From: Rusavskia elegans
Taxonomy: Eukaryota; Ascomycota; Lecanoromycetes; Teloschistales; Teloschistaceae
Reading direction: 5' to 3'
NCBI GenBank assembly: GCA_011316305.1
Contig: SAUG01000115.1
Coordinates: forward strand, 124,001 to 188,000
DNA: 64,000 nucleotides
Positions 1-57,349 of the stretch are shown piece by piece. A program made the translations under genes and the position numbers. Numbering within the stretch: the stretch's first letter is position 1; each line of letters begins with the position of its first letter. The notes beneath the pieces are model-generated. The model searched no databases and was not told the origin of the DNA. It saw only the letters and a program-made list of their open reading frames with translations.

Positions 1-2019
1 TTTAATTTTTATCTAAAATCTTTTATAGAAATAGACTTTTAAAATTAAATCTTTTTAGTCTTTTTTATAAACTAATATTCTAAACTAAATAGTATAGATA
101 GCTACTAATTTCTACTATTTTAGAACTATTAGTTTCCTATCTATTATCCTATTTTTATTATTATTTCTAAAGGTTTCTTTTATAGCTATAATAAAATTAC
201 CGAAAGTATAAAAAATCTATATTATTTTATCTTCTTTCTATTTTTCTAGATTATCGAAGTAATTTTCTATTTAGAGCTATATCTAATTAAAGATAGCTCT
301 TTCTAAATATAATATTATAAATAGGACTTTAACTACTTTATTCGAAAACTAGTTTATATATAATATAAAGTAGATATTTTTCTAAATAATCTATAGTTTT
401 AAAGATCTTTTATTTCTTTTATAGATATTTAGTATTATTACTTTAATAGTATTACTTTAATCTATAGATCGAGATAATAAGACTAATATAGTAAATTATT
501 AAAATATAATATCTCTATATATTAGAAGGCGTTATATTCGAATCTAGTTATAGTTATAAACGTAGTCCGAACTACTAAATAGTAAAAGAATTCTAGCGTA
601 GATTATTATAATTAATTTTATATAGCCGTAGAGGTACGATTATAATATTATAAGGTATTTTTAATATAAAGTAATTAAAAATAGAATAGTAGAAACGTAT
701 TTAATAATTATATTAATAACTAATAAAAGAAACTATCTATAGGAGTAATAAGCGATATATATAATAAAAGTAGCTATAAAGGCCGATAGATAGCTATCTA
801 TTAAAAGTTCTATTAGAAGGGGCGGCTATAGCGGCTATAGGCGGCTATAGATAATTAGGTTCGTTTATTTAACTAATTCTTTTAAAGAACCTCTGTGGAA
901 TCGTAGATGTAACAATTAATAAAAAAGTATTTAATAAATTTTTTAAAGATATTATAGATTCTTTTTATTCCGATAATATATTCTAGACTTTTTCTATTAA
1001 TAATTTTATCGGTAATAACTCTTTCGATAAAGATAAAATTAAAAAATTTCTCTATATTAATAAACTACTTTATATTAAAAGAAGAGGTCGGTTAAAAAAA
1101 ACTATTAAAGCCCGTTCCGTATTATATATAAAAGAAACGTTATAGAAAAAGTCTATTTAGTAAAATTTATTTTTTTTCGAATTTATAGAAATAAAAATAC
1201 GCGAGAAAAAAAAGTAATATAAAATTAAAATTCGCTTTATAAAAAGATATTATATTAAATAATAATATTTCTATTATAATAATATTCTAGCTATACGCTA
1301 TATAGCTATACGAAATATACGAAATCGAAGAGAAATAATATAAAAAAAAACTAGAAAAAAAATATAAAATCGAAATTAAAGTAGAAAAGATACTAAACTT
1401 TTTTAAATTTTTTTAAATCCTTTTATTAATAATAATAAATAATTTGTATCAGCGATTATATAAGTAACTATATAAAGTCGAAGCCGAAGTAGACAAATAT
1501 TTCGAAAAGGAAGATTACGAAATAGAGATAAAAAGATTTCTAAACGGGTATAATATTTCGATAATATAATAAATAATAATAGCGAGTATAAAGCTACTAT
1601 ACGTAATCTGGATATTACTACTAGTAATAGTAAAAGTAGTAAAATTATAGATCGATGTTAATAAATTAAAAAAAAAATCGGAAAGATAAATATAAATAAA
1701 AATAGAAAAATAATCTAATATATATTTAAAACGTTTAAATTAACTAGAATTAAAAATTTAATAATATTGAAATAAAATAGCTAATTAGCTTCTAGATAGA
1801 TAAATTAAATAAATTAGAATATAGTTAAAAAATTTAGTTAAAATAATCGTATTCTATAAAATATATAAAATAGAAAGAAATAACGGAATAGTAATTTAGT
1901 ACTCCGATTAGTTAAATTCTATTTAATAAACGTAAAGTCTTATAGTAATCTCTATAGAATATTTTAGTAATTTCTATAGAGTACTTTAGTAATACTGTGG
2001 AGTGCACGGATCAAAGCTC
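1..2019. repeat. RIP-degraded AT-rich element
   Basis: This stretch is extremely AT-rich and full of TA dinucleotides, with stop codons in every frame, which is the signature left by repeat-induced point mutation on duplicated DNA in Pezizomycotina. No protein family can be recognised. A short tandem of cggctata-type units sits near 820-850. The last 110 bases (about 1900-2019) match the right end of the element at 2558-3261 in the same orientation, so this is probably the right end of a related, larger element whose left end lies outside the window. Confidence 0.75.
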
Positions 2020-2068
2020 TATATTTGTTCTTTCTTTGTTCTCGATCATTGATATCGCTTTCCCAGAC

Positions 2069-2534
2069 ATGGCCACAGTATATATCCGACAATACGGACC
2101 AGTGCAAGTCCGTCAAACCGGAGAAAATTCTGTGGTAAGGTCTGCCCTCTGATCAAATTTATACCATACTCAACTTGACCACCCTATAGATATTCACTGC
2201 ACGCACGTTCAGCCGCACGTTCCACAGAACCGTTGGAGAAGGGCCGAACCCCAGGATGTCGTACCTAGACGCAAGCGACATCTTCCCGCTGCGACGATTG
2301 CAAATATCTATTATCGACAAGCATAAGTCCCTTTCATTAGATGGTGAAAACGGTCTTAGAGATTACGTCGATACAGCCTGCAACTTCATATCCGAATCAA
2401 ATCGTCTGCATGATAAAATGGAAGAATGGGTTGCCGAGTTGAGGTCTTTTGATGAGGAGGCTACATTTTTCGAGTTTCTGTCAAGAGCCATTAGTCGCGA
2501 GCAGGTTTGCTGGGAGCTTGTACCAATGTCTTGA
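2069..2534 (+). CDS. TFS-family small protein, copy A
   Basis: Two exons, 2069-2134 and 2190-2534, joined by a 55-nt GTAAGG...TAG intron in phase 0, give a 136-residue protein. I do not recognise a known domain. There is no signal peptide or membrane segment. Exon 2 opens IFTARTFSRTFHRTV, which aligns with the start of exon 2 in three other genes in this window (14520, 22755, 23510). A second conserved block, a basic stretch followed by W-x-x-E-L, lies near residues 100-115. The gene is GC-normal although RIP-degraded repeats flank it on both sides. The start is the first ATG in frame with the conserved splice. That it is coding rests on the paralogues sharing the same intron position; function is unknown. 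Confidence 0.6.
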
Positions 2535-2557
2535 CTTTCAAAGCAATCTTATAAGGT

Positions 2558-3261
2558 GGGACCCTGATCTGTAGGCACCACACTATTACTAAAGAATACT
2601 ATAGAAATTAAAAAAAATACTATAACTTTAGTGTTACTTTTTAGAATTTAGATATCAAAGACGACTATTTATATTATATAAATATATACGTTTCTAATTA
2701 AAAGTTTATAGTATTTATAAAATTGAAATCTTTTTATAATATAAATTTTTACTATTTTTATATTTTGAATCATTCGATTTTAATACTATAGAAATATTAT
2801 AAATTTAATATCATTTATTTGGAATTTATATATCGAATGATATTAAAAATAGATTCTATTTCTAGTAAATATCATTTTTACGTTAATCGATTCTATTATT
2901 TTACGTTAAAATCTTATATAGATTTTCTATATTCTTTTATTTCTATTACTATTATAGTTTCTTTCTATCTAATTTCTATTTTTTAATAAAACTTTTCGAA
3001 GTAAATATAATAATTTAATATAAACTTCGAAAGATATAAAATTAAACATTGTATACTATTTAAATAGAACAGCTGAATTGCTAACAAACATTCACGTGGT
3101 GAATATAAAGATAGATATAAGATAAGTGGATAGTAGTTTAGTATTGCGATCAGTTAAATTACGTTTAACAAGTATAGTATTCTATAGTAACTCCTAAGGA
3201 TATTTTTAGTAATCTCTATGGTATTATTTAGTTGTATTCTGGTGCCCACCGATCAGGACCC
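2558..3261. mobile_element. RIP-degraded TIR element (about 700 bp)
   Basis: The ends are inverted copies of each other: the left end begins GGGACCCTGATCTGTAGGC and the reverse complement of the right end begins GGGTCCTGATCGGTGGGC. The match continues with differences for about 50 bp. The interior is very AT-rich and has no usable reading frame, as expected after RIP. A third copy of this end lies at about 1900-2019. A target-site duplication is not obvious. It is probably a non-autonomous DNA transposon or MITE; the superfamily cannot be named from what is visible. Confidence 0.65.
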
Positions 3262-4925
3262 ATGGCCTTTCCGTCTTTGGCAGCAATCTAGCAAAAGCAA
3301 GGCGTCGGAGTTCACCCGACCAACTCGCTCAATTCTACTGTATCATAGTCGATCATGCTCGGAACTACCCATCTTTCACAAATGATGGCGGCGGCCTTCA
3401 AGCCAGAGTGCCGTGTAAACCCGCACCTGGACCAGCAACTAAAGCCCATGAATAAAGCATCTGCCTGCTCACACCAGGATACTTGTGGATTACACTACCC
3501 TTCTTATTTGACGTGTAACGTCCGATTATCGTGGGTTATACCGCATGTTCCTGGTAGGAGGGAAAGGCAGACCCTGGTCGCTGGCCTTCAGCAGTGTGTC
3601 ACAGATGGCCGCAATTCTCAACCTATAATTGGTCGTGATTGCAGTCACAACACTATAGACTGGCAGAGGCCTAAATAAAACACATGATTTGTCTCTTCAA
3701 GATTGTATCTCTATCTATACATTCATCGACACCCTGATGGCACGGCATTTTTTGTTCCATATCTTGCGCTTTTCGCTGGCCAAGATAGGAAGAAATCTTA
3801 TCTGGTCGTATAAGAGCTTTCGCCCTCCTTCACATCTATTTCCGACTTGTCCACTTTCGTCACGCTCGCGGCAGGTGGTCCGCTCTCGAGAATTTTCAGT
3901 GGCTTCTGAATCCCTTCGTCATCCCCCTGCACTTCCCCCTCGACCTGGCAGGTAATCCTCACATTGGTTGTTCAAAGAATCTTAGCGGGCCCGTGGATCA
4001 CGGGGATAGAGTCGCGGCAAGCTCGCTTAGAATGCGATGTCGAATCAGGGGTTCAGCAGACTGAACCGCAACGCATTTCCCACTCTGGAACAGGCGAAAG
4101 GTGCGCACCCAGTGTTATTTCCTTCGCCGGCCTTCGAAGCGAGCTGACTGCAGTTTTTCGTCGCCACAGGTTGCAGCAGTCATCCTCGGGTATGAAACCT
4201 CCGGCTACGTGTGGCACTTGGAAGTATCTTATATTAGAGGGTGACCTCGAGGTCCCTGCTTTGCAATCCTACCACATACTACAAAGTGACAGTTTTCTTA
4301 AAGACAAGCTTATTAGATAGCGCTTAAACGGCTCTTAAAAGTTATGGGCTTTCGAAGCCATAATATGTAGGCTTGCAAGGGGCTGGGAATTGGGGATAAG
4401 GCTCTTTTCTATAGGGCTACCGTTGTGCCCGGAGTGGCCCCTTACAACAAGGTTTTCTCGATTCTTATAATTTCTACGGTATAGTGGTGCGTACAGCCTG
4501 CCCTTTCGACCTACATCCTTGCACGTAGCCTTGACGTAAGTCCTATAGGGTAAATGATTGACAGGTATAACGATGGATAAGACCGATGTTAGATAGGTTG
4601 TTAAGACTGCAAACCCTACGTTGCACTCCCCGCAGGGTGGAAGCCGATCATATACCTGCTCGGCCAGCGGATACTCTTTCCCACTTTGTAGATATCAGCT
4701 GTGCGCCTTGCATTCGAATACATTGCCCATCCCCGAAATGCCGAGTTTCGCACTGACTCTCGGCGAACCCATCGAATTGCCCACCACAGCACGTCGACCC
4801 AGTCGGCTCAAGTACTACAAAGGCGGTTGCGGGCCATAAAACTCAAGTCGTCGCATACCGGAAGTTTTTCAGGAGGTGCAGCCCGATCCGTCAATTGTTT
4901 GGTTCTTGACTGAGAATCGCTTCTT
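3262..4925. other. Gap without a supported gene
   Basis: GC-normal sequence with several plus-strand frames of 70-120 codons. None shows a known motif, splice structure or compositional sign of coding. It may hold decayed genes and the 3' flank of the MFS transporter gene. Confidence 0.5.
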
Positions 4926-6385
4926 TCATGGGTCTGCCTTTCTACCATATCTAAGCACCGCAACCAAGGGCACTATCAAGCACAGAGAGCCCACTGCCAC
5001 CATTCCTCCCGCAAAACCTTGCGCTGGTGAGAAATCCGCTCGGCGTAGATCGACCAAGGCTCCCGCAATGGGCGTTCCGATAAGCACTCCCACACCCGCA
5101 AACATCCAGCTCATGCCCATGCGAGTGCCGATCACACCCATCGACGGCGAGAGCACCGGATGCGAGATGGCCGCGCTCGGTGCCGCCACCAAGACGCCCG
5201 AGAGCAGGCCGTACAGCAAGCAGAACACGACAAAGCCGGCGGTGTTCCGGACGGCCATCCATGCGAATAGCAGTGCCACGGCCGCCACTGAGGCGACAAG
5301 GTATACCTGCAGAGAGCCCAAACGTGCCGCGGCCAGCATGGGCACCGTGCGTCCGAAGAAGGAGCCCGCGCTCACAAATGCCACACAGTCGAATGCAAAC
5401 TCGCGGCTCTTGCCCAGCGCCACGGTCGCGTACACCGGAATGTAGAAGGGCGGGATGTAGAAGGCGATGTAGTCGAACAGCAGCGCGAGCGCGAAGAGGA
5501 GAAAGCTCGGATCGCGGAGGGCGCTCGCGTCAAGCAGGGAGCGCGGCCGGGTCCCGCAAGGCGGCTGGGATGGCAGTATGATGGCGAGCGCCACGGTGGC
5601 GAGGACGAGGTTGACGAACGCGATGGCTCGGACTGTCCAGGCGAAGCCGATCTCGGGGACCAGGCCACGGAGCATGAAGGTGAATATGATACCGCCGACG
5701 CTGCCGCCCGAGTTCACGCAGCCGATTGCGCACGGGCGAGTGGAGGGCGGAAAAAGTGTCGAGACGAGGGCGAGGGAGGGAACGTAGACAAGACCGGAGC
5801 CGAGACCGACGCCGAGGGCCTGCGCGAAGAAGACCTGCCAGTAGGTTCTGGCGAGTGAGAGCATGGACATGCCGAAGACGATGAGGAGACAGCCCACCGA
5901 CAGCAGAGGGCGCAAATGGCCGGCGTCGAAAAGCGGACCGGTGATGACACCGAGGACGATGACGAGGAAGGTTTGCACGCTGCCGATCCAGGAGATGGAG
6001 CTCGCGGAGCTGGTCGGGAGCAGCGAGGTGCGGTAGATTTCCTGGAAGATGCCAAAGGTTTGGGTGAGGCCCCTAGAAAACCACCGGGTTGGGAGTTAGC
6101 GTGGCTGGAGAGAGAGAGAGGACACGAGAGAGTCGCCGTGGCCCCGAGTGAATTTCCGTGTATGAAGTACCATGCACTGATGAAGATCAGAAGTGTAGCG
6201 AGCACATCTAGCCAAGCTCTGAGACCTCCGGGCGGTTCGGGCACAGGGACAGCGTTTATAGAAGTAGTGTCCCCATCAACGTCACTCGCAGCGATTCTTG
6301 CGTCGAGTTCGATCACCTCTGCGGGATTTCCGCCGTGGGATCCGGTTCGTGCGCTCCCAGTAAGAGACGAAGGAGGAGGAGCCAT
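4926..6385 (-). CDS. MFS transporter, monocarboxylate-transporter-like
   Basis: Two exons, 6171-6385 and 4926-6072, joined in phase 2 across a 98-nt GTACTT...CTAG intron, give 453 residues with about 12 hydrophobic segments. The N-terminus is cytosolic and acidic and leads into a PPGGLRAWLDVL motif; the join yields FISAWGLTQTFGIFQE, the TM1 signature of the fungal monocarboxylate-transporter-like MFS group. The family moves small organic acids or metabolites across the plasma membrane, but the substrate cannot be read from sequence. It is co-oriented with the aminotransferase and P450 upstream, so an export or uptake role for that locus is possible. The chosen start gives a usual-length N-terminus; an in-frame ATG 23 codons upstream would extend it. 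Confidence 0.88.
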
Positions 6386-7132
6386 TCGGTATGGAGCAGC
6401 GGAGTGGTTTGTATGATCCGATATGGTAGTTATCAAGCATACAAGAGCCAGCAAGAGTCTGAGGCAGGAAGAAAGTATGGCAGCGAAGACGTGAGTTGTG
6501 ACTAAAGATCAACCGCATGTTTGCATATGAAAAATAATTGATGGATGTTTGGAGCTAGACAAAATCTGCACCCTCAGTGCGACTCCATACAGTGATCTGA
6601 TAAGGTACCAGTGAATGCGGGAACCCCTCATGATCTTCCTTTCTTGTACATCAACGAGAATCTCCTTGCATACCATCTTGTCAGATTTTGGAAGCGATGC
6701 CCCGAGGTGAAAGGAGTGCCACCAGATTCCGAATGCCGTGGAATACTGTCAGCCCCCGGATCTTCTTAGGAGTAGGATCTGCGGAGTAAAGTGGAGTCTA
6801 GACTAACTAGAAAGGCTTAGCAATTGTCCAGTTGTAGTTAGCGCATACCAAATATAGTTTAGCTCCCGGTGGATCTCTTATAAAAGCTCTATTATACGAC
6901 AGATAGATTTTAATATAATAATCAATTCTTCCCCATGACCATATATATGAGCAACCTCATACCGAGACAAAGAGTAATAATTGGCACGCATCAAGAGTAG
7001 GAGTGGGTCATGTACTTCATGCACCAGCACCATTTTCCTCTCAACATCAATATTCATACAGTGAAAGATCGACCCAAGTTTCTTCCATTCCGTCACAACG
7101 CAGCGTCGCCAGCCGCAGCACAGCCACTTTTA
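6386..7132. other. Intergenic gap
   Basis: Holds the promoter of the MFS gene and the 3' flank of the aminotransferase gene. No further gene is seen. Confidence 0.5.
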
Positions 7133-8536
7133 CTATCCAGCGAGCAGGCTAGCTTCCACTTCCGTGACCTTGCTGCACCAGCCAAACCGATCCTCCAACC
7201 TCCCCTGCTGGATACCTTTCAAAAGCGACAACAGCTTGGCACAGCATGGCCCTGGCTTATCATCGAAGCTGCCCGTGTACGAGAACACGTCATGCGTCGA
7301 CTCCCTCGTGATGCTCTTGATAGGCACCAAAGTGCCCGCCGTGCCGACTGCGAGCACCTCGCTGAAGCTCGGCAGCTCTTCATAATCGACAGCGCGGCGT
7401 TCGACCCCCCAGCCCAATAATTTCAGCGCGATCTCGCAGACAGAGTCCGAGGTCACGCTTTTGATAGCCCGGGTCGGGTACGGCACAACGACTGTGTAGC
7501 TGCTGCTGTTGCCGCTGTTGCCGCCTTGGTCGTGTGTTTTGATCCCCACGAAGCCAGACATGGAGAACTCGTCCACCTCCGTCCGCGTCTTACTGTCGAG
7601 ATGAAGCAAAATTCCGTAGTCTGAGGCTCTCGCCTTCTCGATATGTCGCACCAGCGGCGAATAGTTTCCACCCACCTTGGCGGGTCCCGTGCCTTCCGGG
7701 GCCACGCGGTCGTACTCCTCCAGAATCAGGGCCCGGATCGGATCCACGCCATAGGCCACGCCGACCGGGGTGACGTACACACAGAAGGTGTAATCTTCAG
7801 GTGAAGCCATACTGAGGGTCGCCGAAGTCCCGAATATGATGGGCCGGATGTACAAGGCGGCGCTGGCGCCATGGGGAGGGACGTACTGGGTGTTCCGCGC
7901 CACGGCCATGTTGACACACCTCAAGAACTGCGCCTCGGGTACCGGAGGGATCGAGAGGAAAGCCACCGAGCGCATCATGCGGGCTGCGTTTTTGGACGGC
8001 CGGAAGATCTGCACCTCCCCGGAAGGCATGCGGTATGCTTTAAGTCCTTCAAACGCCTGCTGCGCTGCCGTGCCGTGGACGCAAGAGCTCATGTTAGCAG
8101 CAGCAGTGAAGAGAGAGAGAAATGGTAGTCTGAGATGAACAAGGAACGAAGCATCCTACGTACCGTAGTTCAGCGCGGGCGAGAGGCCATGGATGCGAAG
8201 GAGCGGATCGGTGATGAACTGCGGTTCGCTCCATCCACCGCCGCCGGCGTGCTGCTTCCGGTATTGCGATTCGACATGGCCATCGACTGGAGAGCTGAAA
8301 GTTTTTACCTGTTTACACTCGCCGGAGAAAAGGGCTTGGGGCGGACTCTGTTGTCGGAAGGTAGGGAATCACCAACCTTCGCGGACGTCGAAACCAAAGC
8401 TGTCCCAGTCTGGGGATGGGGTGATGCTGAGTTAGTGCGGCCATTGGTTTGAGCAGTCAGGTACTAGAGCGTAGGAACTCATTCTAGGAGATCTATACAG
8501 ACCGATGAAGCTTGCCGGGGCGGATGGAAACACCAT
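7133..8536 (-). CDS. Branched-chain amino acid aminotransferase-like (class IV PLP enzyme)
   Basis: Four exons (8503-8536, 8377-8409, 8164-8286, 7133-8064), all in phase 1, give 373 residues. The first junction gives ASFIDWDSFGFDVREG, the start expected of fungal BCATs, followed by VDGHVESQYR. Exon 4 has QQAFEGLKAYR, the PLP-lysine segment GPAKVGGNYSP and DEFSMSGFVGIK. The family transfers the amino group between branched-chain amino acids and 2-oxoglutarate. The DEFS-x-S form of the cofactor-site segment resembles BCATs found in secondary-metabolite loci (the TOXF type) rather than the usual EVGTMN form of housekeeping BCATs; this is from memory of the family. It lies between an MFS transporter and a P450 on the same strand. 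No clear mitochondrial presequence is visible. Confidence 0.88.
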
Positions 8537-9202
8537 GATAAGTGGTGAGGGAGAGTGGGAGAAGCGATCTGCCTGTCCTCTGCGCTAGCTGGCAAGAGCG
8601 CCCGTCTGTTGCTTGGGAGACCTCAGTTGCTGTACAGGTGTTATTGCCCTCTCTTTTGCTCTTCTCGCGGTACGGACAGTGAGAAAGTAGCCCTAGCTCC
8701 TTGGTTGCGATGAATGAAAGGAAATGGGCGTTCAACGATATTCCCAAACCACGCCCAGCTCTCTTGTCATACCACACTCTTTTTGGGGGAAAGATACCCC
8801 TCTTGTGGTTTGAGGCAGGTGCGTGCGGCAAGATGAATTATGTTGGGACCAATTAAATTGTTCCAGCCTTGGAAACATAGCTGTCGAATGGGTTTGATGC
8901 TTTTGAATCACCCGAGCACACTGATGGACATACGCTAGCGGAAATGTCCCTTAGAACCGGATTGCAGACATCCTAATTAAACGATATCAAGATCCGCCAC
9001 GACCAAAAATTGCCTCGAGAATGTGTGTGCTTCCCCATCGCGCCACCAAACGAATGCAGATCCCTCTCCGGCATGATGAGAGTGTCCTAAGCCACAAGGA
9101 CCCTAGGCTTGCTGCATAGCATAATTCTGCCCTTGACCCCTGATGAACAACATCGAAAAAAGCGAAATTTGCCGTCGAAAGCAGGCGCCCAAGGCGAGGC
9201 GT
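8537..9202. other. Intergenic gap
   Basis: Promoter of the aminotransferase gene and 3' flank of the P450 gene. No additional gene is supported; a 112-codon minus-strand frame here only overlaps the BCAT first exon in another frame. Confidence 0.5.
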
Positions 9203-48225: not shown

Positions 48226-51200
48226 TTATTTTTTTCCACCGTCACCATCACCAAGACCCAGGTCCCCATGTTTCCCGAACTCGTCTTCCTTTGGGGGCTT
48301 GTCCTGGGGCTTGTCCTTGGGCTTGTCCTTGGGCTTGTCCTTGGGCTTGTCCTTGGGCTTGTCCTTGGGCTTGTCCTTGGGCTTTGGGTTATTAGGATCA
48401 GGATACCGAGGATCAGGGGCAGCCACGACGAAGAAGACATTCCCAAGTATACACCTCCCACCCCACAGATCTTCCGCGTCTTTGTCTTTGGTTGTATTGC
48501 CTATTCGTCGAGAAGAAGAGAAGAACCCAACGGTCAGCAAAACAAGGCTCTAATTGTCCATTTAAAGAGGCGGCAGCAGCAGCGGCAGCAACTTACAATG
48601 ATCAACCGCGGCCTCCAACCCCTTGATACAGAATGCCTTGTCGAATCCCTTGACGTTCTTCCCTTCAACAGACCCGACTCGGAATCTCACAATTGGTTTG
48701 TTGGTTGGATCGTCGGCGAACCGTGTGAAGTCTATGATGGATGTACTGGATGTATCGGTGCCTTCGCAGAACTCGCGGATCCAGTTGTCCACCGCTGAGC
48801 GTTTGAAGGGTTGGTTAACTAAGGGTGGGCATTGGCAATCCTTGGGGTCTGCGTTGGTCGTGGTAGCGGAGACGTCGAAGGTGACATCGTCGATTTTGAC
48901 AGAGCCGCCATAGTGGAAGATGGTGCCTTTGTCGCCTGTTCGTTGGAATTAGCAAGGGGAGAGATGGGTGGATGTGAAGGGGAGCGTGGGAGGGCGGTGG
49001 TGGTGGACAGGTTTGGACTTACAGCTATCGACGGCGGTGGTAAAGCCGTTGATACATGCAAGCGAATTCCACGGGTCTTTCTTCCCCTTGCCGGAGGATC
49101 GCAATTGCAGGGTTATTTCACCGTTTCCCACGATCGAGAAGGCTTCCACCTTTCGATCTGTCTGGTGGCTTTCGCATGTTTTGTTGATAAATGCATACAT
49201 GTCGGCTGGCGCGAAAGTCGCGAATTTATTATGAGTTGCAGCATGGCAAACGATATCCTTGGATGGGGGGGAGAATTGGGGCGGAGGTTTCCATGGAGCT
49301 GGTGGCGGTCCTTTGGTTGGAGGTGCGGGTGCTGGAGAAGGTTCGGGCGCTTTGGAAGTGGACTTGGGCGGTACGAAGACTTTGCTGGCGTAAACAAAGT
49401 AGTGAACGTCTCCAACTTGGAGGTCGCCACCGAATTTCTTGTCGGGTTGCTCGTCATCGCCTAAGGGGTACATGTTAGTCTTGAACACAGGTCTTCTTGG
49501 AAAATCGACGATGAGCGGAATATCGGGAAGCCGAAATACACGTACAATTATTCAAGGCGAGGTAGAAACCAGTCATGCAGTCTTCCTTTTTGAACTCTAC
49601 GGGTTTGGAGACATTAACCGCTATCAACCAGAGGTCGACGTCCTTGTCACTTTTGGCGTGTCTCTGTTGGTTGCTCGGAAATGACTTGAGGGTAGTACAA
49701 GAGTCGTTGATGAACAAAGCCATATCCGATTCATGGAAGCTTATGGTTGCGCCTTTGAACTTAGGGTCAGAGTAGCAGGTTTCGTTGGTGATTGGGAGCG
49801 ATGTATCTGGTTGGTATATTGGCTGATAGCCCCCAGGCAGTTTGCAAGTAAACTAAGTTCCCCGGACCGAACATCAGTATATCAGCTGCATTAGGTGCGA
49901 CTCCCTCGCGCCGAAGTAAGGGTAACCCATGTCACTGAGAGGGTTTACCTGGTTGGAGTACTTAGGATCTGTAAGATGACCATTTTCGAATATCAACGTC
50001 TCGCGAGCCTCCCCTTGGCGCTTGAAGACGCCCTCGATGAGGTTCGAGATACTTGCCGGGTTGACAGTCCATCTTCGTCCCAGCGGTCCTCCTGGCGGTC
50101 GTACCGGCTGTTGCGGTCTCGATGGATCCAAGTGGTCCCCCTCATTCTCTGGTGGATATACGTTGGAACCAGGTCCGCACATCTGAAGATTGTCATAGGC
50201 GTTATTGGAAGCTACGTCATGGCCGTCCGGAGAACGGGGCGGCTGCCGCCTACTAGATTTGATAAAGCCCTTGACCAAATAGGCAGCGACACCTACCGGC
50301 CATGTATGGCCAGGAAGTGTCAGGAAGTAAGCTGCAAGTCCAGCGATCTGCGGGACGGTAAGGGCACTACCTGTGGCCGTTGCATATCGTCCGTGGGGAG
50401 CTGATGTATCGATTATGTCAACTGTTTCTCCAAGCGCGTAGACTGTGTATTCCCCAATGAGATTCGGATCGTTGGCGCTGCCGGCTCCAACAAGACGATT
50501 TCTAACATAATTAGCACGTCCCGTAGCTCCCCCCTTACTCCCGCCTATGCTGACCGACCCAACGACAATTATGGGATTTCCCGCATTGGCAAAGCGTTGG
50601 GGACTCCAGAAGCCCAGGGATTTTCGGTATTGATCCGGTCGTCGTCCGAAAGGAATTTCTCCTCCTCCAAAAACAGTAACGATGTCCGCATTCCAGCAAT
50701 CTACAAGTAGCGGAAGAAAGAAATCTCCTTGGTCTGGCTGTTGGATATCCCACGCGCCATAGTCAACGTGATGATTGTTCCCCAAGGTTTCGAGGTACTC
50801 CCATGCTGTAAAGGGCCAGGGTCAGTCTAAGGGACTGGAGTATGACGGGGCTGGGTTCTTACCGCCGCTGTAACTCGTGACTGCGTTGCCCATCAGATTT
50901 TTGGAATACACGTCCGATATAATCCATCTCCAATACTCGTACGCTTGAGCGAGAGTTTCTAACCCATTCTGATCTGTGGTCTTGACTCCGATAAGAGTAG
51001 CTTTGTTGGCAGCACCAAGCGTGTTACCAATCGCCAAAGCAGCAAATACATCGCCTTCCTCGTTGTCGGGCGGTTGTGCGGGAGCTGATGGATCGAAGGC
51101 AGGCGCATGAACTTCATATTGTCCATTGGGTCCGTTCTCAACACCCTCCCGAACGAACTCCTGTCACAATCGTTAAATGTGCCACAACAATCCTGCGCAA

Positions 51201-54200
51201 GATGCCACACTAAAACTACTTGAACTCACCTCATGTGACAAAGTAAAGCCTTTCCCCAGAACGTAGATAGTAGCGCCCCTACCCGAGGTTCTCTCATGTA
51301 AGTAATAATTACGCGGAGACCATCGTACCTGCGGATGCGAAAGCTGCCTAATGAGTCTGTCAGGCCTGAAGGACAACATCTGCAGCTGGAAGGCCCTAGG
51401 AGCTCTCCTCTCCAAGTACCAAGGTCCTTCTGGAGTTTGACGCTTTGGTATCGTTCCGTTCGATCTCTGATCAGAGCGCGATAGCATGCGCCCCTTTGCG
51501 GTAGGTTTCGATTCTTTTGTTATGGGCTCACTGACTACTCTCATCCTATTGGGGCCAATCACCGCAACGATACGATCTTTATTCACAGCTTCGGCTTCTT
51601 GTCTCGTCATCCTCCCAAGGTATGTCTGATACTGCCTGGGCCAGTCGTAAAGTCGCTGAGGTCCAACCCCCTTGTCGGGTAAGTTCCGGATGAAGTCGTG
51701 GAAAGCTTTCACTGTCGTATTTGGCACAGTGACCAGGAAGTAGTCGTCCCTACCCTTTTTTGCCCCTACAGCATTCCAAGGTAGGGCACCGATCGAACCC
51801 CCATTCGACTGGGAGAGCAACGCTAAAACCGTGCCGCCCGCCACGTATGCAGGAGAGTGTTTCTTCAAAAGTTGGAGCGCTTGTGGTGGGTTAGTGATGA
51901 TGCGACCAAGGTCGCCCAAGGTTCCCCTGAGTAGGTCGAAGAGGTTGCGATTCGCGTTCTGAACTGATACGACGCGACTGATGTCAGCAGGGGGAAACGT
52001 ATCCAGTTCGATGGCATCAAGACCGACGCCGAGCCCGCCAACATCTGCGCGCTATCAGTATCGAGTTGTTCATGCGATGTACAGGTGTACTGACCTTCAG
52101 TAGCCGATATAAGCTGGCTGACGGCATCGTACAGCTTCGGGAAACTGATAGGACACGAAAACTCATCTCGTCGGCAAAGATTGGACAGGCTGTTAACGGC
52201 ATCTACTGCACCGCGCACAGCACCTTCTGCTTGCTTGGCAAGGTCTAGAAGACCTGATAGCAAGCCTCCGCCGCCGCCTCCGCCTCCGCCTCCCCCTCCC
52301 CCTCCCCCTCCTCCTCCTCCTCCTCCTCCTCCTCCACCTCCTCCTCCTCCCCCTGCCCCTCCTCCTCCGCCGCCGCCTCCGCCTCCTCCTCCTCCCCCAC
52401 CCCCTCCTGCTGCTGCTCCTGCTGTCCCGCCGCCGCCGCCAGGTAATAGCAGAGCAGCGTCCCATGGGATGGATGGGCTGGGAACAGTGAGTGTCCCTGG
52501 GATAACCGTGCCTTTCCAACTGTCACCTAGTACAGGGCTTGGCAGCGTCAATATCCCGGGCAAGACGATATCGTTAACACCCTTCGGAAGTTTCCAATCG
52601 ACCAGCGGTTTGATATTTGGTGAGACCTGTTTAGTGACGGAGCCTTGTTCGCCCATGAGTAGGTCCGCCTTCTTAAGATCGTCTTTATTCACCTTTGCTG
52701 GATCTTTGATTGAGTCCGTCAAGTGGGTTATCGTATCTTTAGTCCCAGTGAGGATCGAGGGCAGTGAGGTCTTGAACTTCTCAATGACCTGTTTGACATC
52801 ACCTGGGAGAGAATTGATATCGAGCATTGTGGCTTCCTTGCCGAGGATTTGTATGGAAGCGTACGCGGCTGCCAGGATTCCAAGAGCCTCCATGACGTCG
52901 TCGGACTTGGGTGAACTCGATTTGGCGAGGTTCGTCGTGGCTTTCTGGCCTTCCGAAAGGCCTTTTTGAACTGCTACCCCTAAAGGTACTAGCCCTGACA
53001 CAGCAACTGCGCCGACAACAATCATTGAATCGGGAGCTATTGTGGGGCTCGGTATTGTCGCGATACCAGGAATAACGAGGGCTGCTGCCGGCGTTTGACC
53101 GGCCACTACTGATGTAACGGAACTGCTTGAAGAAGTGGGTTTAGATGACTGAGTGGATGCAGCTTGAGTCTTAGACCCAGAAGATTGAGAAAGGCTTTGT
53201 GACCTAGGTTTGGTGGAAGTACGCCCAGGTGTACTGGCAGGTATACGCCCAGGTGTACTGGCAGGTGTACTGGCAGGTGTACTGGCAGGTATACGCCCAG
53301 GTGTACTGGCAGGTGTACTGGCAGGTGTACTGGCAGGTATACTGGCAGGTGTACTGGCAGGTGTACTGGCAGGTGTACTGGCAGGTGTACTGGCAGGTGC
53401 TGTAGATTTACCGGGAGCAGGTACGATGGGTATTACGGGCACAGTTGGTTGTCCAGATTTAGTAGACGAAGTGGCCGATGTACCGCCGTCCGGCTTGCTG
53501 CCACTAAAAGAATGTGTTCAGTGAAAGGAACCATCTAAGCAGCTAACCAAAGCACCGTAACTTACCTGCCTTCCCCCGAGTCCATATCGAGACTCCAGAG
53601 CGTCGTCCCACCAAAGCAATTCTCGGCAGCCCAGTCGGTTTTCATACCAAGAGTCTCATCATCATCATAGCCTATCCACTGGTCATCCCATGAGACTTCT
53701 TTAGACATTGAGTTTGGGACAAGCTGTGCTTTCAGGTGTTTATCCTGGATGAGATCATTGATCTCGACGTTCGCTAAAAGGCCGGCTTCACCCGTGCATG
53801 GACCTGGCTTGCTTGGGCCAGTAACCTTACAGTCGGAGTGTGAACATTTTGGATCCGATAGAGTATACCCGCGACCAGCTTTTGACAATCCCAGGTTGAC
53901 TTTCTTGGAATCCACTCGGGCTGTCCACAAGGCCGCAGCAGCCTTCTCGATCTTGCGGACGTCAGTATGCGAACTTACCGTTGTATCAGCATTTGGTGGT
54001 GCACGCAAGTCGTAAGAGAGGTAATTGAAGAAGTCGACAAACGGCTCCATACCCTTGGGGTCAAAGCCAGAAAGATACGAGTCCGGTGGTAGTGTGACAC
54101 TGATACCGTAGTTCTTGGCCCATGCAGCTCGCATCTCTCGGACAAGAGCGACATAATTAGCGGCATCATTAATGGACCCACCGCGATCAACTGCTGATGG

Positions 54201-55073
54201 ATACTCCCAGTCGAGATCGACACCCTGGAAGCCGTTCTTTTTCATGAAATTACCAAGAGATGTGATGAACCCTTTGCGCGCATCGACCCGAGATGTCATC
54301 AGCTTCCACGTCTCACGGGTTGCACTCCCCGCGGCGCCAAACTGGAAGCCACCAATAGCGATCCAAGTTTGCATGGATGAGCTTTTACGGGCAGTAAACT
54401 GACCGTATAAACCCACATCGTCAGGGTGAGCTGGAACGATATCGAAAGTCTTCGGATCGATGCTCGCAAACGCGAGGTATAGATGACTTAGCCCGGCAGT
54501 AATGATCTGCGAGGGCGAAATGCGGTGACATCGGCGCTTCCGTAGATTATCTCTAAGTAAGGTTAGCGATGAGGATCAATCGATAGCTCGTAGCATTGTT
54601 GCGGCGATGCGTGGGCGGAGAAGCACTTACACTTGGTAATACCCTATTTTCCTGGGCAGTGGAGATTTGGGGCATTTCGCCCTCGGCACAATATGTTCTC
54701 GATGAGATCTATGCGAAAAATGATGAGTACCAGGAGAATGTCTAGTGCCAAGCGAAAGATGACGTTGAGTGCTGACGGATGATGCAGCAGGATCAGTGGG
54801 TAGGCTGGATCGCATAGAATAATCATCGATAATACTCGAGGGTGTAGAGGGTACATGTGCAGTGTTTTGACCTGCAGGATGGCCTTCAGCTGTGGATATC
54901 GAGACAAGAGGATGGATAGAATTATCACCAGTGCTGCCATTTGTAATGACAGTACTTGACTGGATCGAAGAGCCATTGCTACCATGATTTATGATGGAAT
55001 TTTCCGATTGAGATTTAAATACAAGCAGTGCCAGCCAAAGGAATGTAAGACGAAGACACATGGCGAACGCCAT
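48226..55073 (-). CDS. Giant secreted GH18 chitinase fused to a degenerate subtilase and Cys-rich repeats
   Basis: Ten exons (54631-55073, 53566-54552, 52095-53503, 51230-52044, 50863-51160, 49949-50805, 49546-49852, 49023-49460, 48597-48935, 48226-48500) join without any frame conflict into 2,055 residues. The start MAFAMCLRLTFLWLALLVF is a signal peptide. GH18 (about 144-475) has WIAIGGFQFG and GFQGVDLDWEYP, whose glutamate near 264 is the general acid, and ends TTLWSLDMDSGEGSGS as in killer-toxin-like subgroup C chitinases. Then come an STPA linker (about 500-560), a hydrophobic region with polyglycine (about 830-890), a subtilisin fold (about 1195-1510) whose catalytic D, H and S are replaced, three cysteine-rich repeats (about 1610-2000) and a DKPK tail. 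No LysM or chitin-binding cysteine module is seen. It should act outside the cell on chitin; the role of the rest is unknown. Two fused predictions is the alternative, but no stop or start separates the parts. Confidence 0.85.
48297..48386. repeat. 12-bp coding minisatellite (DKPK)
   Basis: About seven tandem copies of the 12-bp unit cttgtccttggg, read on the minus strand as DKPK, near the C-terminus of the giant chitinase gene. Confidence 0.95.
52258..52443. repeat. Polyglycine codon tract
   Basis: Nearly pure cct/ccg/ccc triplets on the plus strand, read as glycine on the minus strand in the giant chitinase gene, interrupted by a few alanines. Plus- and minus-strand frames here other than the glycine frame are artefacts of the low complexity. 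Confidence 0.95.
53218..53399. repeat. 12-bp coding minisatellite (STPA)
   Basis: About fifteen tandem copies of ggtgtactggca with the variant ggtatacgccca, read on the minus strand as STPA and GRIPAS, forming the linker after the GH18 domain. Copy number is likely to vary between strains. Confidence 0.95.
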
Positions 55074-56525: not shown

Positions 56526-57349
56526 ATGGCTGTTGTCTCGTCTTCGAAGAACCCAGACATAACGCTCTACACAGGTCAGACGCCAAATGGCATCAAGATC
56601 TCCATCACGTTGGAAGAACTGGGGTAAGTCACCACTTGCAGTGCCCCGCGACCTGCCAATAATCCCGGTCGAACAGGATCCCGTACAAGACCCATGCGAT
56701 CGACATCACCAAAGACACGCAGAAAGAACCGTGGTTCCTCGAGATCAATCCCAATGGAAAAATCCCGGCTCTGACAGACACATTCACTGACGGACAAACA
56801 CTTCGTCTTTTCGAGTCCGGTAGCATCATGCAGTATCTGGTTGAGCAGTACGACACGGAGCACAAGATCTCCTATCCAAAAGGCTCGCGGGAAAGCTACG
56901 AAGTCAACAACTGGCTCTTCTTCCTGAATGCTGGGGTCGGACCTATGCAAGGACAAGCAAACCACTTCTTCCGATACGCACCCGAGAAGATTCCGTACGG
57001 CATCAGCCGGTACCAAAACGAGACCAGGAGGCTTTATAGGGTCCTGGACAAACACCTCAAAGACGCCGGCACCGAGTACCTCGTGGGTAACAAGTGCACC
57101 ATGGCCGATATCGCTCATTGGGGTTGGATCACGGCGGCGGGATGGGCCGGGGTGGATATTGATGAGTTCCCCATCCTGAAGGCATGGGATGAGCGTATGC
57201 TAGGGAGGCCGGGCGTGGAGAAGGGAAGACATGTGCCGACTCCACATCGGATGAAGGAAATCCTCAAGGACAAGGAAGCGATGGACCGGGCTGCCAAGCA
57301 AGCTTCGGAATGGATTGTCAGGGGGCAGAAGGAGGATGCACAAAAATGA
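56526..57349 (+). CDS. Glutathione S-transferase, Ure2-like
   Basis: Two exons (56526-56623 and 56677-57349) join in phase 2 (GTAAGT...ACAG) to give 256 residues. The thioredoxin-fold half reads ITLYTGQTPNGIKISITLEE then LGIPYKTHAIDITKDTQKEP, NPNGKIPALTD and LFESGSIMQYL, the E-S pair that binds glutathione. The helical half has YLVGNKCTMADIAHWGW. The family conjugates or reduces glutathione-linked substrates in the cytosol. An in-frame ATG at 56481 would add 15 residues (MLRRVSQLGNHINPT) that could be a mitochondrial presequence. The chosen start gives the usual family N-terminus. Confidence 0.92.

Follow-up and report, generated by a model that had tools for sequence, protein, structure and literature searches.

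A Teloschistaceae gene predicted to join a GH18 chitinase, a degenerate subtilase and lectin-like repeats in one secreted protein

The 64,000-nucleotide stretch of Rusavskia elegans DNA analysed here (the window) very likely contains, as a single gene, the coding sequences of a GH18 chitinase domain, a subtilase-type domain and three lectin-like repeats. We propose that the product is a secreted multi-module protein conserved in Teloschistaceae, in which a chitinase, a pseudo-subtilase scaffold and lectin arms would serve adhesion or antagonism, a role to which we give an even chance of being right. Searches of open-licence literature brought up no paper describing a single chain that contains a chitinase, a subtilisin fold and lectin-like repeats, and the passages that a term search gave from two surveys of fungal serine proteases (PMC5567314 and PMC5371821) named no GH18-subtilase fusion.

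The gene was rebuilt from the sequence by rejoining its exons, which are separated by nine introns of 50-96 nt, all nine with GT..AG borders. The joined coding length was 6,168 nt, a multiple of three, with the sole stop codon at the terminus, and the ten exons, their coordinates and the 2,055 residues given in the earlier note were reproduced exactly. The features of the gene are collected in Table 1. Parts that the earlier note did not have, all located between GH18 and the subtilase, are a Ser/Thr/Pro repeat, two helix-rich stretches flanking a poly-glycine run, and a prodomain. The first helix-rich stretch matched no family in the Pfam scan, and the model of the homologue P0018, which covers the GH18 part and the helical middle, is of low confidence (mean pLDDT 47.0, pTM 0.25).

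Table 1. Features of the GH18-subtilase gene, in window coordinates
Feature	Position	Strand	Basis or remark
Whole gene, 10 exons, 2,055 aa	48226..55073	-	rebuilt from sequence
Exons 1-4	54631-55073, 53566-54552, 52095-53503, 51230-52044	-	
Exons 5-7	50863-51160, 49949-50805, 49546-49852	-	
Exons 8-10	49023-49460, 48597-48935, 48226-48500	-	
Likely signal peptide, residues 1-23	55005..55073	-	by eye, hydrophobic core LRLTFLWLALLVF
GH18 chitinase domain, residues 143-472	53580..54647	-	Pfam and alignment; motif GFQGVDLDWEYP intact
Glu264 codon (catalytic, GH18 motif GFQGVDLDWEYP)	54204-54206	-	
STPA-type 12-nt tandem repeat, Ser/Thr/Pro linker	53224..53400	-	TRF 53226-53399
Helix-rich stretch 1, residues 637-781	52591..53025	-	kept in homologues; low-confidence model of P0018
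Poly-glycine run, residues 832-889	52267..52440	-	TRF 52265-52420, period 3
Helix-rich stretch 2, residues 891-1025, with dibasic pair 921-922	51809..52263	-	
Subtilisin-type prodomain (inhibitor I9-like fold), residues 1046-1120	51524..51748	-	P0015 fold and conservation
Dibasic pairs 1147-1148 and 1159-1160			C-terminal to the prodomain
Pseudo-subtilase, residues 1201-1500	50258..51283	-	
Dibasic KR 1579-1580 before Gln, candidate Kex2-type site	50018..50023	-	subtilase/lectin border
Lectin-like repeat 1, residues 1623-1732	49381..49795	-	
Lectin-like repeat 2, residues 1772-1877	48859..49263	-	
Lectin-like repeat 3, residues 1882-1993	48415..48846	-	
KPKD tandem repeat tail	48292..48384	-	TRF 48295-48384, 12 nt x 7.5

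Relatives were collected by two protein searches, which scored the 7,994 and 7,989 candidates sharing the most words and gave P0001-P0019, and by a third search with region 731-1010 of P0008 as the query, which added P0020. The third search returned P0008, P0018 and P0020 only and missed known family members, so its silence on other fungi is uninformative. The homologue sequences are automatic gene predictions from metagenome-assembled genomes, in which single odd residues need care. Precomputed Pfam matches place GH18 in 15 of the 18 relatives counted; P0019, with FG-GAP repeats as its front end instead of GH18, was left out of the count. Each of these 15 could be aligned along the prodomain and along some or all of the subtilase; the sequence of P0018 stops short within the subtilase region. 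GH18 is lacking from P0009, P0015 and P0013, of which the first two carry a partial label and P0013 does not, while P0020 is a partial protein containing the subtilase only. P0001-P0020 represent 12 genera, all of the Teloschistaceae (Lecanoromycetes), and the fusion members include proteins of Flavoplaca citrina (P0011), a Variospora (P0007) and R. elegans (P0012); the restriction of the fusion to Teloschistaceae is what word-limited searches found and not a proven limit. Residues 940-2000 of the window protein match P0001, a prediction from another species, with 55% identity across 99% of that segment, more than chance would produce.

The genome (44.16 Mb in 217 contigs, the window being part of contig C20) was also scanned for paralogues. 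A second full-length copy with the GH18-subtilase-lectin order on one strand was located in contig C72 (G000:C72:73500-83400, gene at about 1748-8717). Its open frames show the Asp, His, Ser triad and the GH18 Glu, and in the tree it is nearest to P0012 of R. elegans (end branches 0.012 and 0.026), a placement that by itself would make the fungus of the window a probable close relative of Rusavskia. Seven of the nine window introns have a counterpart in C72 that matches in place and phase. In this comparison, junction 3 of C72 allowed three splice choices, all in one phase and one yielding the window peptide, junction 8 allowed two, one of them in the phase of the window, junction 5 yielded no candidate, and at junction 9 the script did not locate the right-hand side.

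These data bear on the possibility that two or three neighbouring genes were wrongly joined, with a GH18 enzyme ending at about 53.56 kb and the remainder belonging to another gene, which we consider very unlikely. Retention of intron 2 would indeed place a stop right after SGEGR (open reading frame 53562-54575) and yield a free chitinase, and three of the 18 relatives are without GH18, including P0013, but the fused order in the other 15, the C72 intron equivalent to intron 2 in place and phase together with those at six other junctions, and a peptide, SG..P, kept over the exit from GH18 in 11 of 16 GH18-bearing rows (window counted) all argue against separate genes. The one-gene claim of the earlier note was thereby upheld by the relatives and the paralogue introns, and one of the cases it had named against itself, homologues that invariably have GH18 and subtilase as separate genes, is at odds with the 18 relatives. 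As a separate observation, the stop at window 53562-53566 would release a free chitinase on retention of intron 2, and the C72 copy has the same phase there.

The GH18 domain matched Pfam PF00704 with 157.1 bits (cut-off 29.6) and contains the DxxDxDxE-type motif with the catalytic Glu264. Among the 15 rows in which the whole motif is present, this Glu is kept in ten, the window among them, and replaced in five while the fusion persists: by Asn in P0004, by Gln in P0005, P0010 and P0014, and by Leu in P0006. P0017, a prediction without most of the motif, stands outside this count; its aligned residue is Glu. The GH18 domain of the window showed 58% identity to that of C72 and 53% to that of C180, another locus of the same genome, where GH18 sits amid Chitin_bind_1 matches. 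Identities to other loci were 22.7% for L001 and about 20% over longer stretches for L003 and L006, and L007 gave a short chance match only. PMC2614207 describes a chitin-binding domain as typical of GH18 group C-I, and groups C-I and C-II as akin to the alpha subunit of a yeast killer toxin. As the window domain is 53% identical to that of C180, and C180 lies amid Chitin_bind_1 matches, its assignment in the earlier note to the killer-toxin-like kind is supported by kinship. The usual companion domains are absent: the group C-I/C-II chitinases of filamentous ascomycetes share with the window protein, via C180, a related GH18 domain and are marked by LysM and/or Chitin_bind_1 domains, but the Pfam scan of the window protein detected neither of these two, and a prodomain, the pseudo-subtilase and the lectin-like repeats stand in their place.

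The degeneracy of the subtilase, claimed in the earlier note, was confirmed at the level of the active site. In the alignment, all four catalytic and oxyanion positions are changed in the window, by the substitutions Asp to Gly at 1210, His to Glu at 1253, Ser to Ala at 1465 and, for the oxyanion Asn, Glu at 1367; in the adjacent column, at residue 1366, 18 of the 19 readable rows have Gly. Peptidase_S8 (PF00082) was not listed in the whole-protein Pfam scan, and the excised residues 1201-1500 scored 17.8 bits, below the cut-off of 21.8, as would be expected of a degenerate copy. The homologues P0013 and P0016, in which the triad is intact, scored 69.1 and 67.6 bits and align with the window protein along the domain. 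A subtilisin fold is present in the model of the homologue P0015, and the window protein can be aligned and placed in one tree with intact members. Residues 97-583 of the P0015 model align to residues 6-365 of 3whi, with the prodomain fold ahead of the catalytic fold, although the part of the model bearing the Asp motif (about residues 210-310) has a low pLDDT of 40-79; the Pfam search for inhibitor I9 gave no match to the prodomain.

Asp, His and Ser are all kept in 12 of 20 rows, and the dead subtilase marks a four-member clade including the window, with tree support of 100/100. As the triad is kept in these rows and in C72, the ancestor was probably an active protease. That the window protein is itself a bifunctional chitinase and protease, its subtilase still active through another mechanism, is a reading that the intact relatives and the C72 open frames might suggest, but the joint loss of Asp, His, the oxyanion Asn and Ser makes it extremely improbable. 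The window and its clade differ from proteinase K-type fungal subtilases with a prodomain, such as the alkaline protease of Aspergillus fumigatus, in the loss of the triad, and the subtilase of the window also in being fused to other modules. PCSK9 is a human subtilase that acts through receptor binding and cleaves itself once; it offers a functional analogy only, being human and not fungal, and the window protein is without the triad.

The three Cys-rich repeats reported in the earlier note are present. The excised three-repeat stretch matched PF18647 with 32.5 bits (cut-off 26.5), whereas the whole protein scored 22.8 bits and repeat 1 alone 19.0. Single repeats are weak: in a set of 15, three from the window and 12 from seven homologues, seven matched PF18647 at E ≤ 0.1, the best with 0.00022. 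Across the 15 aligned repeats, three Cys and a GG are invariant and a fourth Cys is kept in at least 90%. P0016 has PF18647 among its precomputed Pfam matches and scored 25.8 bits on rescoring, just below the cut-off. The motif search detected lectin repeats, one or more per row, in 12 of 20 rows, window counted, and none in P0002, P0006, P0007, P0008, P0010, P0014, P0018 and P0019, some of these rows being truncated. Repeat 1 of the P0015 model is built of five strands and two helices (residues 712-803), preceded by a short extra strand (699-701); confidence there is moderate, with block means of pLDDT between about 41 and 83. The Lyophyllum decastes lectin, a free 10-kDa lectin, likewise has five strands and two helices according to PMC8350385. 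The repeats are thus likely to be lectin-like, of the L. decastes type (PF18647/PF21691), with sugar binding predicted, on the basis of the score of the three together and the agreement in strand and helix layout; they differ in forming a tandem of three at the C-terminus of a giant protein and in their weakness as single units. The L. decastes lectin (4NDV) was not among the matches listed in the structure search with P0015, all of which were taken by the subtilase domain, and a search of PDB sequences with the repeat profile found no lectin, the only match being syntaxin-binding protein 3 at chance level (E 0.28). Hce2/Ecp2 effector domains, which the Cys repeats resemble, were dropped as a candidate identity, since Pfam lists PF18647 and no Hce2. 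The binding scaffold suggested in the earlier note is retained in refined form, as one that probably ends in lectin repeats.

Nine dibasic pairs are present in the window protein, and those at 921, 1147 and 1159 lie close to module borders. The [KR]R pair following the subtilase was found in 15 of 17 readable rows and is missing in P0001 and P0003. Kex2-type cleavage of the protein is probable. In the proposed mechanism, the protein would enter the secretory path, and Kex2-like cleavage could trim or separate its modules. The chitinase domain would then act on, or grip, chitin, the pseudo-subtilase would be a binding scaffold and not a protease, and the lectin arms would hold galactose-bearing glycans on the surface of a partner or rival. 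Its job might be to touch the wall of another cell in a targeted way or to open that wall locally, the candidate walls being those of an alga, a bacterium, a rival fungus or the fungus's own hypha. In P0005 and P0006, catalytic residues are lost in both GH18 and the subtilase while the fusion is kept, suggesting selection for binding and arrangement more than for catalysis; binding seems to outlast catalysis in this family.

GH18 enzymes often act in growth and remodelling, and the tree shows several ancient copies of the family, which is spread widely through Teloschistaceae. These points would fit a remodeller of the fungus's own wall, with lectin and chitinase arms that work on the hyphae of the fungus itself as it grows or builds its thallus, a role we regard as rather unlikely; the loss of the Glu in five of 15 whole-motif rows would be odd for a purely remodelling enzyme. 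Delivery in the manner of a killer toxin, the chitinase opening the wall of a rival and the helical middle and lectins carrying the attack, is an unlikely alternative drawn from zymocin of Kluyveromyces lactis, whose alpha and beta subunits come from one precursor. The kinship of the GH18 domain, the dibasic pairs near module borders and the conserved, helix-rich middle are consistent with it, but neither LysM nor Chitin_bind_1 nor a toxin-like domain appears in the Pfam listing, the model of the middle is of low confidence, and zymocin is not known to have a counterpart of the subtilase or the lectin. The roles of the two zymocin subunits are described in PMC2614207.

Lichen fungi of one family have retained the fusion although one or the other active site has decayed, which would make it a naturally occurring example of enzymes converted to binding modules. 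As its carriers are lichen formers and its predicted lectin repeats are of galactose type, the fusion points to specific genes through which partner recognition or defence in lichens can be studied, a question so far approached largely through purified binding proteins. An algal-binding protein was reported in 1980 from Xanthoria parietina, Variospora aurantia and Flavoplaca citrina, and later work named a secreted arginase as a lectin of Xanthoria, as given in PMC8126723. The fusion occurs in the same lichen family, including the F. citrina and Variospora members. It is nevertheless highly doubtful that the GH18-subtilase-lectin family is the molecular identity of the 'Xanthoria-protein', and nothing ties the window gene to the algal-binding protein or to the arginase. 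If it were so, the lectin repeats would read galactose on the algal wall, and the chitinase and pseudo-subtilase would form the anchor and scaffold on the fungal side.

Differing front ends, GH18 or FG-GAP-like, seem to have been attached to the subtilase module. P0019 matched FG-GAP_3 and Peptidase_S8 in Pfam and showed no lectin repeat in the motif search. Three further genes of the genome, in contigs C31, C61 and C51, end in the prodomain-subtilase unit, which follows stretches rich in helix and Gly and repeats that by eye are FG-GAP-like. These FG-GAP-subtilase proteins, P0019 included, share with the window protein the prodomain-subtilase end and the preceding helix-rich stretch, but have FG-GAP-like repeats where the window has GH18. 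A separate PF18647-type lectin domain, scoring 44.2 bits and thus over the cut-off, was located in contig C14 (G000:C14:24000-31500, about 3341-4404, minus strand), where the GH18 profile search of the genome gave no match. It was the sole PF18647 match in the exon-by-exon genome scan, a type of scan that the repeats of the window gene and of C72 escape. In the window itself, a plus-strand open frame at 56663-57349, glutathione S-transferase-like by eye, lies divergent from the GH18-subtilase gene.
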